Positions 4,255 through 38,349 of a stretch of 64,000 bases of DNA are shown here, piece after piece; position 1 is the stretch's first letter, and every line of letters begins with the position of its first letter. Under the pieces are notes generated by a model that saw only the letters and a program-made list of their open reading frames with translations, was not told the origin of the DNA and did not search any database. The translations under genes and the position numbers were made by a program. The DNA lies in contig NZ_CP115917.1 in assembly GCF_027941775.1 (NCBI RefSeq), positions 2,709,001 to 2,773,000 on the forward strand, read 5' to 3'. The DNA is from Tenacibaculum pacificus. Lineage in GTDB: Bacteria > Bacteroidota > Bacteroidia > Flavobacteriales > Flavobacteriaceae.

Positions 4255-4635
4255 CTACTTAGTGTTTAATAACTTAAAAACACCTGCTGCTTCTGTTATC
4301 AAAAATATAAATAACGGAATAACTAACGAAACCTTTTCTGGCTTAGTAAGCTGTACATCTGTAAACACATCTGCTTGAAAGATTAATACAAAAAAACCTA
4401 TTTTTAAAAGCATAGAAGCTAAGTACCCATATCCTGCTTCATTTGGCATTTGACTTACTAGAAGTTCTAATAAAACGTAAACAATACATGTACTTATTAC
4501 ATGAAATAAATATACTGATAGTAATGAGTATGATATACTATCTCCTAGCATATTTAAAATATAATTATGAGAAATATAACTCACTGCAAATAATACAAGA
4601 ACAGTGATAATAAAATATAAAATACGTTTAATCAT
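4255..4635 (-). CDS. Small membrane protein of the ATP synthase cluster (DUF6168/AtpI-like)
   Basis: A 126-residue protein with four predicted membrane helices (about residues 5-23, 35-62, 73-92 and 102-122) and little soluble sequence. It lies between atpZ and atpB, starting 2 bases after the atpZ stop, which is where other bacteria carry AtpI-type assembly helpers. It resembles the flavobacterial family DUF6168. A role in c-ring assembly or in ion supply to the synthase is inferred from position only; no catalytic motif is seen. Confidence 0.7.
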   Translation of the reverse strand: MIKRILYFIITVLVLFAVSYISHNYILNMLGDSISYSLLSVYLFHVISTCIVYVLLELLVSQMPNEAGYGYLASMLLKIGFFVLIFQADVFTDVQLTKPEKVSLVIPLFIFLITEAAGVFKLLNTK

Positions 4636-4637
4636 TT

Positions 4638-4859
4638 TTACTTAGATAATTTTGAAACTTGTAATATTACAGAAAACATAGCCCCAAAAACAGCGACCAA
4701 TGTGCAAATTTTAGTATATAATTGATTTTCATTTACATACTGAGTATCTAGCCATTCACCGAGTTTGTTACCCAAATAAATAGTTAATCCCATTTGAAAA
4801 GCAATACTTGTAAACCGAATATATTTACTAAGCGGTTTTTTCTTTTTGTTTTTGTCCAT
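4638..4859 (-). CDS. AtpZ/AtpI family protein
   Basis: 73 residues with two membrane helices and the conserved AtpZ-like stretch around FQMGLTIYLGNKLGEWLD. It belongs to the small AtpZ/AtpI family encoded just ahead of atp genes, thought to help c-ring assembly or cation supply. Its N-terminus (MDKNKKKKPLSKY) is strongly basic. Its start lies inside the 3' end of the bactofilin gene, a 32-base overlap, which suggests translational coupling. The gene symbol is left blank because atpZ and atpI are hard to tell apart here. Confidence 0.8.
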   Translation of the reverse strand: MDKNKKKKPLSKYIRFTSIAFQMGLTIYLGNKLGEWLDTQYVNENQLYTKICTLVAVFGAMFSVILQVSKLSK

Positions 4860-5232
4860 TATTTAATTCTTTTACCGCACCTTTCATTGCACAAGTTGCA
4901 TTAAATGATGCTCCTGGCTCTACCGAAAGCTTACCCGTAATAACATCTCCATTAATATTAGCAGCTGCTTTTACAGTTAATGTATTTGAAACAACTAAAT
5001 CTCCTGAAAACTTACCTTCAATATCTGCATTTGCACATTCTACTTTTCCTTTAATAAAACCTGCCGCACCAATAATAACTCTTCCATTGGTTTTTATAGT
5101 TCCTTCTAAAGTTCCATCAATTCTAAAGTCTCCTTCTGAAATAATATCACCCTTTATTTGAGTGTTTGTACCTATAACATTTCTTTCTGAAACTTTAGCT
5201 TCGCTTGTTTTTTTACTTTCTTTACTAAACAT
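4828..5232 (-). CDS. Bactofilin (polymer-forming cytoskeletal protein)
   Basis: A 134-residue bactofilin: a disordered N-terminus, then a right-handed beta-helix core (residues about 20-115) built of short repeats such as IKGDIISEGDFRIDGTLEG and IKGKVECANADIEGKFSG, with periodic G-[KDT]-[VIL] turns. Bactofilins form nucleotide-free filaments at the membrane and position wall enzymes or other machinery. It lies between porW and atpZ and overlaps atpZ by 32 bases. Pairing with porW upstream and ATP synthase genes downstream recurs in flavobacteria; whether it has a role in either is unknown. Confidence 0.92.
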   Translation of the reverse strand: MFSKESKKTSEAKVSERNVIGTNTQIKGDIISEGDFRIDGTLEGTIKTNGRVIIGAAGFIKGKVECANADIEGKFSGDLVVSNTLTVKAAANINGDVITGKLSVEPGASFNATCAMKGAVKELNNGQKQKEKTA

Positions 5233-5248
5233 ACTAACAATATTTTTT

Positions 5249-6175
5249 TTATTTTATTCTATCTAATATTTCTTTTGCTTTAACACCTTCAGCTTTATTC
5301 GCATAACGAATGGCCACAAATTCTAATGCTTTCCTATAAGTTTCTTTATCTTTATACTTTCCTAAAGACAATGCTTTTAAAAGTACAAGTTTAGGTGTTA
5401 ATTCAGATTCTTTAATTGTTGATAGAAAAACATCAATATCTTTTACAACAGCTTCGTATTTTTGTTCTTTATATAGATAGTATATTTCTTTGTACTTATC
5501 TAAAACAGCATCTTCTTTTTTATTTTCTGTTAATTTTCTAGTCGGATTTCTTATGATTTCCGCAAATGTTGTTTCAGAATACTTAGTTAAAATTACACTT
5601 TTGTATTCATTCGCTTTAGCCATATCGTTTATTTCACTATATATTTGATATAAATGATAACTTATCGGTAGTTCTAATGTATTATTTTGTTGTTCTTTTT
5701 GTAATCGTTCTAAATTTTTAATAGCAAGATTACTATTTTTAAACTGCTCTTTATAAATTAACCCTAACTGATATAAAGCATCATTACGATCTTCTTTTAA
5801 TGTTGTAATTATTTTTTCATCCGTAGGGATTTCGTCTAAATAAGTCGATAATTCGTAACGTAAATTAACTACAGGTTCGGTTGAGTCTTCATCAACCTCT
5901 TCAATTATTGTTGTTGATTTATCTGATAATCGCCAATTATCTTCTAACGGACGCATACCCCATGTATTCTGAAAAGCTTCTTTTCCAAAACCTAAAGCTT
6001 GCGAATTATAAAAATACCATTTCCCTTTATTACTACCATTATTAATAGCTTTTCCAGTTCCAAAAGAGCTACCAAAATTTTGTGCATTTAATAATAGTTG
6101 TTTTTTCTCTTCATCTTCTTTTTTAATTTTTTCGATATAAGTTTCAAAAAAAGAAGTTCTCTCAGTCGCTGTCAT
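5249..6175 (-). CDS. porW: PorW/SprE type IX secretion lipoprotein, C-terminal part (after frameshift)
   Basis: The C-terminal 308 residues of the same protein as the fragment at 6238-7473, in another frame. The coding frame does not begin at this ATG: it stays open upstream to about 6240 and reads KNKGLTTLRKYESLVKNNDS before the nominal Met, with no stop, so the Met is internal. Tetratricopeptide-like helices follow (YQLGLIYKEQFKNSNLAIKN). One added base between about 6240 and 6285 would join the two parts into one protein of about 741 residues. PorW/SprE is needed for type IX secretion and gliding. Bactofilin starts 16 bases downstream. Confidence 0.8.
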   Translation of the reverse strand: MTATERTSFFETYIEKIKKEDEEKKQLLLNAQNFGSSFGTGKAINNGSNKGKWYFYNSQALGFGKEAFQNTWGMRPLEDNWRLSDKSTTIIEEVDEDSTEPVVNLRYELSTYLDEIPTDEKIITTLKEDRNDALYQLGLIYKEQFKNSNLAIKNLERLQKEQQNNTLELPISYHLYQIYSEINDMAKANEYKSVILTKYSETTFAEIIRNPTRKLTENKKEDAVLDKYKEIYYLYKEQKYEAVVKDIDVFLSTIKESELTPKLVLLKALSLGKYKDKETYRKALEFVAIRYANKAEGVKAKEILDRIK

Positions 6176-33234: not shown

Positions 33235-33337
33235 GAAGCAATTTCCTGCTTTCCGCACTCGCTTTTTTTATTTTTTCAAAAGAAAAATAAAAAAGAGCTC
33301 AAACAATTGCTTCAATCAGGGCTAGGCTTTTTTACTG
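33235..33337 (+). repeat. Dispersed palindromic element, copy 2
   Basis: Outer arms GAAGCAATT (33235-33243) and AATTGCTTC (33305-33313); inner stem of a T-run with ATT pairing to an A-run, loop AAAA; shared blocks CTTTCCGCACTCGCTT and GAGCTCAAACAA. It ends with GGGCTAGGCTTTTTTAC, close to the end of copy 1. The 366-base gap 33116-33482 otherwise contains only the helicase terminator and the pepP promoter. Confidence 0.7.
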
Positions 33338-35858: not shown

Positions 35859-36221
35859 TTACTTAACCGTTAAAGTATATTGAGGTGTAGGATTTAAAGG
35901 ACAAAAATACACATACTCTCCTTTTTTTAAAGTTACTTTTTTAGAAGTAGATTTAGAATTATTTTTAACCAAAGAAGTTACATATGCGTTTTTAATATGA
36001 TGCTCTGCTTCTACTTTTCCTTTTGGTGCTAATACAAAACCTACATCTTTTCCGACATTAGAGTTTGAAATTTCAAAAATATAAGTTCCTTCAGAAAGTG
36101 TTATTGCTTTTTGAGTAAATGCTTCTTTGGTTTGTTCTAAAGAAACCGTTTTAACATCTTGTGCGTTTATATTAAATGTAAATCCTAATACTATTACGAT
36201 TACTGCTATTAATTTTTTCAA
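35859..36221 (-). CDS. Cupredoxin-like exported protein
   Basis: 120 residues: signal peptide (VIVLGFTFNINAQ), then a single beta-sandwich domain like a small blue copper protein. The end of the domain, EYVYFCPLNPTPQYTLTV, is where plastocyanin-type proteins have C-x2-H-x4-M; here Cys is kept but the His and Met positions are Asn and Gln. A His pair (AEHHIKN) is present earlier. It may bind copper in another way or not at all. A 39-residue Cys-rich gene lies upstream on the same strand. Confidence 0.78.
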   Translation of the reverse strand: MKKLIAVIVIVLGFTFNINAQDVKTVSLEQTKEAFTQKAITLSEGTYIFEISNSNVGKDVGFVLAPKGKVEAEHHIKNAYVTSLVKNNSKSTSKKVTLKKGEYVYFCPLNPTPQYTLTVK

Positions 36222-36309
36222 TGATTTTAAGTTTTAAACTTTATTTATTATGCTTTTGCACTAAATTTCCCTGTGATAGTTTTAATGTTTAATGTTGTAA
36301 TTCTTGTTC

Positions 36310-36429
36310 TCATTTTTTATATTCTTTATTCGTTTGTTCACATTTACATAATTCTCTATCAGACAATTGCTCATTGTACTCTTGATATCCCCAACAATTA
36401 GGGCATTGATACTCTTCTAGTGTTTTCAT
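36310..36429 (-). CDS. 39-residue zinc-ribbon-like small protein
   Basis: A short open frame starting ATG at 36429: MKTLEEYQCPNCWGYQEYNE, then a charged tail with CKC. Two pairs of Cys (CPNC and CKC, 16 residues apart) could bind a metal. I recall similar very small CPNCWG proteins in flavobacteria, without a known function. It lies 88 bases upstream of the cupredoxin-like gene on the same strand. It is below usual ORF-calling length; the coding-like composition and Cys spacing support it. Confidence 0.55.
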   Translation of the reverse strand: MKTLEEYQCPNCWGYQEYNEQLSDRELCKCEQTNKEYKK

Positions 36430-36599
36430 CTTTTTACTTTTTATTTCAACCAAAAAAATTGTTGATGATTAATACTGGTACAAAGATTCGACGAGAATAG
36501 ACTTTTAAAAATGGACAAAGGTTCCTTAAACTTGGACTAAATAATATTTTAAAAATATTTTGTTAACCTTAGCTTGCATTTTCAGTCGAAAAAACAATA

Positions 36600-36607
36600 T
36601 ATATTTG
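36600..36607 (+). promoter_or_regulatory. -7 box of small RNA unit A
   Basis: TATATTTG, full TAnnTTTG match; the upstream element is more divergent here than in units B-D. Confidence 0.65.
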
Positions 36608-36610
36608 TAG

Positions 36611-36698
36611 TGTTATTATAGGTTACATATCCCCCGTGTGTGAGTCCCCCCAGAAATAATAGCCAAACTCGTAGCCTTGTGTATTACGAGTTTTTTTT
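36611..36698 (+). ncRNA. Putative small RNA A
   Basis: About 88 bases from the predicted start to the end of the T-run. Two C-runs (CCCCC and CCCCCC, 10 bases apart), then AGAAATAATAGCC, then the terminator stem AAACTCGTA / TACGAGTTT. The C-runs and the AGAAAT/GGAAAT block are shared with unit D. No ATG-initiated frame. The exact start is inferred from the promoter box. Confidence 0.6.
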
Positions 36699-36778
36699 GT
36701 GTCTTTTTTTTAATAATGAATAACATAAATATCCTAATTTGTTAACATATACTCACATTTTAAGGCTAAGAAACAATA

Positions 36779-36786
36779 TATATTTG
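36779..36786 (+). promoter_or_regulatory. -7 box of small RNA unit B
   Basis: TATATTTG, full match; TTTTAA 17 bases upstream and the 25-base conserved element at 36740-36764. Confidence 0.65.
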
Positions 36787-36789
36787 CAG

Positions 36790-36864
36790 CGTTGTTGTTA
36801 TTTAGAACATGCGAATAGTATGTTTGCTCTCTAACTCGTAAACTTGTGTGTTACGAGTTTTTTT
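36790..36864 (+). ncRNA. Putative small RNA B
   Basis: About 75 bases: CGTTGTTGTT start, a middle ACATGCGAATAGTATGT that can form its own small hairpin (ACAT.../ATGT), then terminator stem AACTCGTAA / TTACGAGTT. Lacks the C-runs of units A and D. Confidence 0.55.
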
Positions 36865-36947
36865 ATGCCTTTTTTTTAATAATAATGAATAACATAAATA
36901 CCCTAATTTGTTAACATATACTCACATTTTAAGACTAATAAACAATC

Positions 36948-36955
36948 TATATTTA
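36948..36955 (+). promoter_or_regulatory. -7 box of small RNA unit C
   Basis: TATATTTA, one mismatch to TAnnTTTG; same 25-base upstream element as units B and D. Confidence 0.5.
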
Positions 36956-36958
36956 CAG

Positions 36959-37033
36959 TATCTTATATTCTTAATAATACATCCCCAAAAGATTGAATAC
37001 CTAACTCGTAAACTATGTATTACGAGTTTTTTT
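36959..37033 (+). ncRNA. Putative small RNA C
   Basis: About 75 bases with one short C-run (CCCC) and terminator stem AACTCGTAA / TTACGAGTT plus T-run. The weaker -7 box suggests lower expression or decay of this copy. Confidence 0.5.
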
Positions 37034-37383
37034 ATGCCTTTTTTTTAATAAATTTTAAATTTTACTCATACCTATTTCATATAAAATAAATAATAGCTCT
37101 AAAATTATTAAAGATTAAAAAAAGAGCTCTAATAATTGAATTATCTAACATTTAAAGTAATACATTATTAATTACATCAATATTACAATTAGCAAAAAGC
37201 TTGATTTTAAGCAATCTACAAACTCTTTTATCTTTTAAAAAAAATGACAATTAAGAATAATAAAACATCATTATAACACATCGCTATTTTTTAAAATTAA
37301 AGAACCTTTTTAAGGTTTTAATGATTAACAGAAACAATATGATTTGTTAACATATACTCACATTTTAATCTTAAAAAAACAAA

Positions 37384-37391
37384 TACATTTG
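37384..37391 (+). promoter_or_regulatory. -7 box of small RNA unit D
   Basis: TACATTTG, full TAnnTTTG match; conserved 25-base element at 37344-37368. Confidence 0.65.
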
Positions 37392-37394
37392 TAG

Positions 37395-37482
37395 TGTTGT
37401 TATTCTGTAGTAGCCCCCAGATACTAATTCCCCCGGAAATGATAATACCCAACTCGTATACTTGTGTCTTACGAGTTTTTTT
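37395..37482 (+). ncRNA. Putative small RNA D
   Basis: About 88 bases: GTGTTGTT start, C-runs CCCCC and CCCCC, then GGAAATGATAATACCC and terminator stem AACTCGTA / TACGAGTT. The C-run spacing and following block match unit A although the bases between differ. It ends 15 bases before the 3' end of the convergent AraC gene. Confidence 0.6.
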
Positions 37483-37497
37483 ATGCCTTTTTTTAAA

Positions 37498-38349
37498 TTA
37501 TGATGATTCTTTTTGTGCTTTTTGAAACTGTTTTGGAGATTGTCCTGTAGCTTTAGTAAAAAATCGAGAAAAATATGCAGGATCATTAAATCCTAAATCA
37601 AAAGCAATATATTTTATAGCATCAGTAGAATATAATAATTGACGCTTCGCCTCTATTACAATTCTATTTTTAATAAAATCGCTAGGTGTTTTTGAATTTA
37701 TTTTTTGAAAATGCTTCGTTAATGATTTTGGCGAAATACCCAAACGATTCGCATAATCAGAAACACTATGTAGTTTTTTAAAATTTTGAGAAACTAACAA
37801 ACTAAAATCTTTAAATAACTTTGTTTCTTCGTCTTCTTTAATTAAATTATATTCTTTTTTTATACGAACAGAATGAATAATAAATTGTTTTAAATACGCT
37901 TGTAACATATCATATTTTGCAGTTTCAGTATTTTCAAATTCATCAACTAAACTATCAATAATAAAATCTAATTTTTGACTATCTTTTTCACTTGGTTTTA
38001 CAAAAGGAGTTTCGTACACATTATTAAACAATACGCCGTTACAGGAAATTTCAGAATCATGAGCTTGAACACAATAAAAATCTTGATCAAAACTTAATTG
38101 ATACGCTTCTTTTATTTTTTCTGATGTTACTGAAAACATTTGTCCTGGAAATAAAAAAAATAATACACCATCATTAAAAGAATAGCGTTCAAAATCAATA
38201 TGATATATTCCAGATCCTTCTTTTATCCAAAAAATTTTGTAAGTATTAATTTGAGTTGGTTTATTAACTATACAAGCTTTTTCAAATTGTACAGTTTGTA
38301 GTGAAAATATCTCTTGATATTTATAAGTTTTTATATTTTGAATAGCCAT
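37498..38349 (-). CDS. AraC family transcriptional regulator
   Basis: 283 residues: an N-terminal cupin-like sensing domain (residues 1-165, with FFLFPGQMFSV) and a C-terminal AraC DNA-binding domain (about 180-283) with DYANRLGISPKSLTKHFQ and the second helix-turn-helix YIAFDLGFNDPAYFSRFFTK, ending GQSPKQFQKAQK. It is likely a soluble, ligand-responsive activator. It is convergent with the small RNA array, whose last unit ends 15 bases away. Its own promoter region is not clear. Confidence 0.93.
   Translation of the reverse strand: MAIQNIKTYKYQEIFSLQTVQFEKACIVNKPTQINTYKIFWIKEGSGIYHIDFERYSFNDGVLFFLFPGQMFSVTSEKIKEAYQLSFDQDFYCVQAHDSEISCNGVLFNNVYETPFVKPSEKDSQKLDFIIDSLVDEFENTETAKYDMLQAYLKQFIIHSVRIKKEYNLIKEDEETKLFKDFSLLVSQNFKKLHSVSDYANRLGISPKSLTKHFQKINSKTPSDFIKNRIVIEAKRQLLYSTDAIKYIAFDLGFNDPAYFSRFFTKATGQSPKQFQKAQKESS

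Follow-up and report, generated by a model that had tools for sequence, protein, structure and literature searches.

Known small RNA systems and their comparison with the Tenacibaculum RNAs

In Caulobacter crescentus, four sibling small RNAs (sRNAs) of the alphaR8 family, SisA-D, carry the C-rich stretch UUUCCUCCCU, and CrfA counters them through a G/A-rich stem loop; according to the available part of the source, CrfA acts as the sponge and SisA-D regulate mRNAs (PMC12559287). By analogy, and with no claim of homology, this is the nearest known logic to the C-run and G-loop RNAs of Tenacibaculum described below. In both cases, C-rich sibling sRNAs are faced by an RNA with G-rich or G/A-rich loops in a two-RNA decoy logic, but in Tenacibaculum both families are multicopy. 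Moreover, because the C motif also stands in some mRNA leaders here, a reversal of the roles known from CrfA/SisA-D is suggested.

The nearest known type of array, again by analogy and without a claim of homology, is LhrC1-5 of Listeria monocytogenes. These sRNAs are multicopy and G-poor and carry UCCC-type motifs at three places, namely loop A, a single strand, and the terminator loop; all five copies are under the control of the two-component system LisRK and bind lapB mRNA, as stated in the available part of the report (PMC4132741). The likeness consists of multicopy sRNAs with C motifs (C-runs in units A, C, and D of the locus studied here) and of one regulator, which is putative here. Unlike LhrC, for which the same partial source describes no such RNA, Tenacibaculum has a candidate G-loop counter-RNA, and the phylum is a different one (PMC4132741).

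Within the phylum, the nearest known system by analogy is FopS of Bacteroides thetaiotaomicron, for which homology is not claimed either. It comprises 14 paralogous short sRNAs that have an R1 seed, bind RbpB, and pair near the start codons of their SusC-type target mRNAs; compared by description, and as far as the available text goes, FopS is described without the C-run motif, palindrome, and G-loop partner of the Tenacibaculum RNAs (PMC11697453). Another conserved flavobacterial sRNA, Rfp18 of Flavobacterium psychrophilum, affects mRNAs. Unlike the C-run RNAs, and compared by its partial description, it is strongly folded, and its third stem-loop is predicted to mediate an action on protease mRNAs (PMC9723704). 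A literature search, which covered titles and abstract starts of mostly open-access papers other than preprints, found no description of a circuit such as that proposed below, and few post-transcriptional circuits of Flavobacteriia were found by the same search.

Four-unit sRNA array

The initial annotation of the window (the whole stretch of 64,000 nucleotides analyzed here) had described four repeated modules, each consisting of an upstream element, a -7 box, and a terminator. All four were found at that place on the + strand with the parts in this order (Table 1), and by their sequence they are very probably genuine sRNA genes. The starts of TTGTTAAC were located at 36560, 36739, 36908, and 37344, and the -7 boxes of the TAnnTTTG type at 36600, 36779, 36948, and 37384 read TATATTTG, TATATTTG, TATATTTA, and TACATTTG, respectively. 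The distance from TTAAC to the -7 box was 37 bases in all four units (usually 36 in relatives). The terminator arms ACTCGTA...TACGAGT (AACTCGTA/TACGAGTT), followed by 7-8 T, were likewise present in every unit, and transcripts of approximately 69-82 nt were predicted. With at most three mismatches allowed, a terminator pattern recovered a single unit out of four; a short pattern for the upstream element was far too loose, with 890+850 sites vs. 1567+1581 for the reversed control.

The high conservation ascribed to the upstream element held for units B, C, and D, which were identical over 20 bases, but not for unit A, which matched at only 14 of the 20. As had been observed, units A and D each contained two C-runs of at least four bases (C5 and C6 in A, C5 and C5 in D), while these were lost in B and reduced to one C4 in C. 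The absence of a common reading frame was also verified, the longest ATG frames within the drawn transcripts being of 10 and 12 codons, and a peptide reading was dropped for this reason. Unit D had both an outer stem and an inner hairpin in addition to its terminator, and the middle of unit C was weakly structured.

A known riboregulator had been considered as well. When the 4227 families of Rfam release 15, including Flavo-1, were compared with the array, no match was obtained at the gathering score; the top match at E≤5 reached 20.2 bits vs. a gathering score of 102. Fifteen loci of relatives also gave no Rfam match. Over the window, Rfam detected tRNA and Flavo-1 only, the latter outside the array. 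This Flavo-1 RNA (RF01705) at 33238-33327 on the - strand scored 46.4 bits (gathering score, 42) and sits between a putative DEAD-box helicase gene and a putative M24 peptidase gene; it is unrelated to the array.

Table 1. Features of the array and its neighboring genes (positions in the window)
Feature	Position	Strand	Remarks
Putative sRNA gene, unit A	36560..36698	+	element 36560, -7 box 36600
Unit A C-runs	36631 (C5), 36646 (C6)	+	
Unit A terminator arms	36667, 36685	+	T-run to 36698
Putative sRNA gene, unit B	36739..36864	+	promoter and terminator as in A; hairpin kept
Putative sRNA gene, unit C	36908..37033	+	-7 box TATATTTA; C-run CCCC at 36983
Putative sRNA gene, unit D	37344..37482	+	-7 box TACATTTG; C-runs 37414, 37430
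Shared upstream element, unit A copy (TTGTTAACCTTAGCTTGCAT)	36560..36579	+	most diverged copy
AraC-type regulator gene (HTH_18)	37498..38349	-	convergent with array; conserved but not constant neighbor
Cupredoxin-like small protein gene	35859..36221	-	conserved neighbor
21-codon frame	36248..36313	-	where relatives carry a full CMD (AhpD-like) gene
Small cysteine-containing peptide frame	36310-36429	-	adjoins probable CMD remnant

The gene names lysA, pepT, truA, lepB, WbqC, TilS, M24, and DEAD-box are putative, as they were assigned by reading sequences. In relatives, reading by eye showed that the array is separated from the cupredoxin gene by a CMD (AhpD-like) gene together with a small cysteine peptide; the CMD assignment was tested on the copy of one locus (L149), and the 21-codon frame of the window is probably a deletion remnant of this gene. 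An AraC gene adjoined the RNA gene or array in 13 of the 18 genomes with fetched regions. Its proposed role as the controller of the array, which the initial annotation had based on position, was not supported because four genomes (G018, G070, G073, and G008) carry the RNA gene but no AraC gene in the region fetched; moreover, the element of the relatives is of the Crp/Fnr type.

C-run sRNA family in relatives

The first homologues (L003 and L004) were obtained by a DNA search of 59 genomes. A covariance model of the C-run RNAs (R1), built from window units A and D and L004, covers the promoter, outer stem, inner hairpin, and terminator. When relatives were searched with it, as the initial annotation had suggested, the family was found, with a threshold of E≤0.01, in 20 of 166 congeneric genomes, including that of the window, often in tandem. 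These matches, and that of unit A, as a DNA query, to unit D (E 6e-14), are more than expected by chance. The paralogous sRNA array with common control that had been proposed is supported. Units A and D scored 157.5 and 156.5 bits, which, as for L004, holds by construction because they were model rows; units B and C, which were not rows, scored 81.9 and 65.7 bits. Judged by these matches, the window array belongs to a Tenacibaculum family of C-run sRNAs. In G083, the model matched one isolated RNA next to Crp/Fnr genes (L048) and not the array.

An alignment of 32 units was prepared from 39 model matches, from which three weak matches, the units of G073 and G179, and window units B and C were removed. 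Single folds of most units contained an outer stem and an inner hairpin whose loop carried a C-run; another C-run followed this hairpin, the linker often held further ones, and a terminator was present. The RNAs contained one to five runs of at least three C, often as CCCCUUA. In the alignment, 86.0% of cells were paired vs. 82.7% in shuffles (0/500) and the covariation score was 0.110 vs. 0.089 (3/500), while pairs changed on both sides were not above shuffles (7 vs. 5.2; 93/500); these counts lean toward the structure counted, because it was named by the analyst from single folds. RNAalifold returned zero pairs for the 32 units. The structural support for the C-run RNA fold is moderate. A special exposure of the C-runs by folding was rejected, as the unpaired value was 0.852 vs. 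0.839 in dinucleotide shuffles.

Upstream palindrome and Crp/Fnr-like genes

According to the available parts of the sources, the PrfA box is tTAACanntGTtAa (PMC5359189), and PrfA is kin to Crp (PMC3443378). The upstream element of the relatives is the PrfA-box-like palindrome TTAACNTATGTTAA, which in most cases lies 22 nt away from the -7 box, and the PrfA box matches the relatives' TTAACATATGTTAA (PMC5359189). The palindrome is a 14-bp TTAAC-N4-GTTAA centered near -41, with the start inferred from the -7 box. Unlike PrfA, the candidate regulator here is an approximately 190-aa cNMP-domain protein of Flavobacteriaceae, a putative binder. On sequence grounds, the shared element of the relatives is a Crp/Fnr-type palindrome and not an AraC site.

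When the palindrome and -7 box were searched without demanding a C-run, 69 sites were found in 46 of the 162 genomes, and the reversed pattern gave one site. In the window genome, the exact palindrome TTAACNTATGTTAA with a -7 box gave no site; the window element is its cognate, with the left arm retained and the right arm altered. Two sets of sites, 31 and 23, were read, which makes 53 of the 69 because one site falls in both. The spacer was 22 in 26/31 and 19/23 sites, and CCCC lay within 130 nt downstream in 28/31 and 20/23, while GGGG lay there in none (0/31 and 0/23). Over 84,980 species, the palindrome motif with CCCC was found in 41 stretches, a count that stands without a computed chance number; 39 of them were titled Tenacibaculum, Polaribacter, or Flavobacteriaceae, one Eubacterium, and one Bacteroidia.

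The palindrome precedes several unrelated RNA scaffolds, most with CCCC. Besides those of the arrays, there are scaffolds flanked by truA and a metallophosphoesterase gene and others next to Crp/Fnr or DUF6122 genes; a few sites point toward protein genes. At L132 (G002:C1:2733000-2743000), positions 4516-5299 on the - strand, four tandem palindrome-driven C-run RNAs lie between truA and the metallophosphoesterase gene, and by its sequence this is an independent array on another scaffold. At L145, L151, L118, L122, and L130, the palindrome promoter is followed by CCCC (only CCC in L145) with no obvious terminator. These sites may be mRNA leaders of the same regulon, because a secreted-looking protein gene follows in L145 and L151; the L151 protein had no Pfam match.

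Crp/Fnr-like genes were found beside the sRNA in 8 of the 20 regions read, encoding one to three proteins of approximately 190 aa. All four of these proteins tested contained a cNMP-binding domain, and 13 were aligned. With this alignment, to which G078, G102, and G184 supplied rows, an orthologue of at least 249 bits was detected in 13 of the 14 genomes outside the window clade (180 in G003), while the best value in the six window-clade genomes was only 114 bits. From this linkage and co-absence, we infer Crp/Fnr control of the C-run promoters.

G-loop RNA family and its complementarity to the C-runs

A second structured RNA family surfaced from the target search TAAGGGGN{0,20}ATG. These RNAs have two G-run hairpin loops, commonly UAAGGGG, and a terminator. 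They occur between pepT and lysA and also beyond the far side of lysA, with up to five in tandem, and at least two GGG runs were present in 58 of the 60 units. All five folded units beat shuffles (z -5.5 to -8.4). In the alignment of the 60 units, which was fitted to the model, 96.6% of cells were paired vs. 83.8% in shuffles, the covariation was 0.392 vs. 0.156, and none of 500 shuffles reached the real value on any of the five measures. The RNAs are preceded by an inverted repeat AAGG...CCTT, which suggests a second regulator acting on them. Tandem G-loop RNAs with their own AAGG...CCTT were observed at L216 (G078:C1:71000-75500), L212, L213, and L214.

Strong G-loop matches (E≤3e-5) were obtained in 30 of the 166 genomes. 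They were found in all 14 genomes outside the window clade with a C-run model match, five of which supplied rows to the G-loop model, in none of the six inside it, and also in 16 of the 146 genomes without a C-run model match. In the window genome (G000), no G-loop RNA was detected at E≤0.01 with strict filters. In G000, G018, G070, and G071, pepT still neighbors lysA, but by eye their spacer was without G-loop hairpins.

The UAAGGGG of the G-loops is complementary to the CCCCUUA of the C-run RNAs. Among the units of G-loop genomes, 35 of 81 C-runs were followed by UUA (background, 6%), compared with 0 of 8 in the window clade; these eight omit the C-run of unit C, which is followed by AAA, because units B and C were dropped from the alignment. 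UAA preceded the G-run in 50 of 111 cases. This complementarity is partly built in because the family was found by searching TAAGGGG: the first G-loop was part of the search key, which included neither the second loop nor the letters that follow the G-run. Whole-RNA duplexes of C-run and G-loop RNAs were barely better than shuffles keeping the C-runs (mean z -0.58; 8/23 below -1).

Candidate mRNA leaders and the proposed circuit

Leaders were searched with CCCCTTAN{0,20}ATG, and nine regions picked for recurrence were read among all sites. The start-codon searches yielded fewer sites than the reversed controls (CCCCTTA, 426 vs. 743; TAAGGGG, 398 vs. 774), and gene-start-like sites were found in just 3 of the 28 CCCCTTA loci and 0 of the 30 TAAGGGG loci examined. 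CCCC was not enriched before genes, with 7/277 leaders at -35..-1, three of which were known beforehand, vs. 10/277 at -235..-201; in window-clade loci, it was 0/128 vs. 2 further up. GGGG occurred in 1 of the 277 leaders.

The gene starts with recurrent CCCCTTA were those of MARAM (a 65-aa protein named here after its first residues, without a Pfam or NCBIfam family), a DsbD-like gene, and a TonB-like gene. In the last, the motif precedes the AUG, and in two of the three copies read it also occurs in codons 4-6. The MARAM leader contained CCCC in 13 of the 14 G-loop genomes (seven as CCCCUUA) and also in G003, and it read CCCCCG in all six window-clade genomes. It was without CCCC in all seven other genomes lacking a C-run model match, four of which (G020, G064, G068, and G076) do carry other palindrome-driven CCCC RNAs. 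The DsbD leaders of the 14 G-loop genomes contained CCCCTTA in seven, other CCCC in five, and neither in two; in the window clade, CCCCTTA was present in G008 only, although G008 has no G-loop match.

The pairing of C-rich strands with G-rich targets, as proposed in the initial annotation, thus stands in part: a G-rich partner is plausible, but as a second sRNA family and not as G-rich mRNA starts. Direct G-rich mRNA targets were rejected, with matches below the reversed control and no gene-start-like locus among the 30 examined. The same results bear on the possibility that the C-run sRNAs act directly on G-rich mRNAs and that the G-loop RNAs are their sponges. Multicopy sRNAs bearing UCCC act in this way in Listeria, according to the available description of LhrC, and the complementarity of C-run and G-loop fits either way; however, recurrent G-rich mRNA starts were not seen, and MARAM and many dsbD starts carry the C motif itself rather than its complement. 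This arrangement is considered unlikely.

We prefer a decoy circuit, with a probability of approximately 45%, in which the G-loop RNAs would silence CCCC-tagged mRNAs and the C-run RNAs would be target-mimic decoys. The ancestral C-run gene was probably turned on by a Crp/Fnr-like activator at TTAACNTATGTTAA, approximately 41 nt before the start. The G-loop RNAs would pair with the CCCC tag of the MARAM, DsbD-like, and TonB-like mRNAs and repress them, and the Crp/Fnr-driven C-run RNAs would mimic the tag and absorb the G-loop RNA, by which the mRNAs would be released. More broadly, and tentatively, this would be a self-contained RNA circuit of marine Bacteroidota, with Crp/Fnr-driven C-run decoys, a two-loop G-RNA effector, and CCCC-tagged leaders co-evolving; the predicted co-evolving pairs are CCCCUUA with UAAGGGG and, in the window clade, CCCCCG with a CGGGGG partner. 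The regulator, candidate decoy arrays, well-covarying counter-RNA, and named candidate mRNAs, all indicated by sequence alone, make up a testable two-RNA circuit.

RNAs that titrate an RNA-binding protein are known from CsrB/RsmZ, and the CCCC tag could similarly be a protein-binding site, with the C-run RNAs titrating the protein and the G-loop match being incidental or acting on this. Such a protein would suit the presence of a single short motif, in one to five copies, on several unrelated scaffolds, and the CCCC core persists in the window clade without the known G-loop RNA. However, a CCCC-binding protein by itself does not account for the UUA extension being common alongside the G-loop RNA but missing from the window clade, and this explanation seems improbable.

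State of the window clade

A DsbD tree was prepared for 25 of the 28 genomes (G064, G065, and G068 were left out), with a midpoint root and several poorly resolved inner forks. The six window-clade genomes grouped together (100/100), and the clade nested in a group also holding G-loop genomes (92/94). The clade has neither the Crp/Fnr orthologue nor the known G-loop RNA, and its palindrome is without the right arm. Because of its place in the tree, the loss of these three parts and of UUA is probably derived, and because the six genomes form one clade, these losses count as approximately one event statistically. The clade is a natural case in which several parts of the circuit were lost or changed together.

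Within the decoy circuit, the window array would have been rewired to an unseen partner or would be a decaying remnant (no C-run in B, a short one in C), because its clade has no regulator orthologue, does not carry the known G-loop RNA, and has C-runs without UUA. That the array is a non-functional remnant, with its regulator and partner lost and the C-runs lost or shortened in two of the four copies, would also agree with the changed palindrome arm and with the adjoining CMD gene being a probable 21-codon remnant. However, the promoters and terminators look intact in all four units, TTGTTAACATATACT is common to window units B, C, and D and to G018, G070, and G073, and the MARAM leader retains its motif throughout the clade. 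A purely non-functional array is regarded as quite unlikely.

In the window clade, the C-runs of the sRNAs are followed by G or A and not by UUA, and both the sRNAs and the MARAM leader read CCCCC; therefore, an altered partner is predicted. In approximately 0.5 Mb of the window genome, no matching partner was proven among 302 runs of at least four G, 95 of which lay outside long frames. Near position 18935 of L367 on the - strand (approximately C1:2478935 of the window genome), a terminator-like hairpin with UCCGGGGGGA lies downstream of a promoter-like box and is a possible G-loop partner in this genome.
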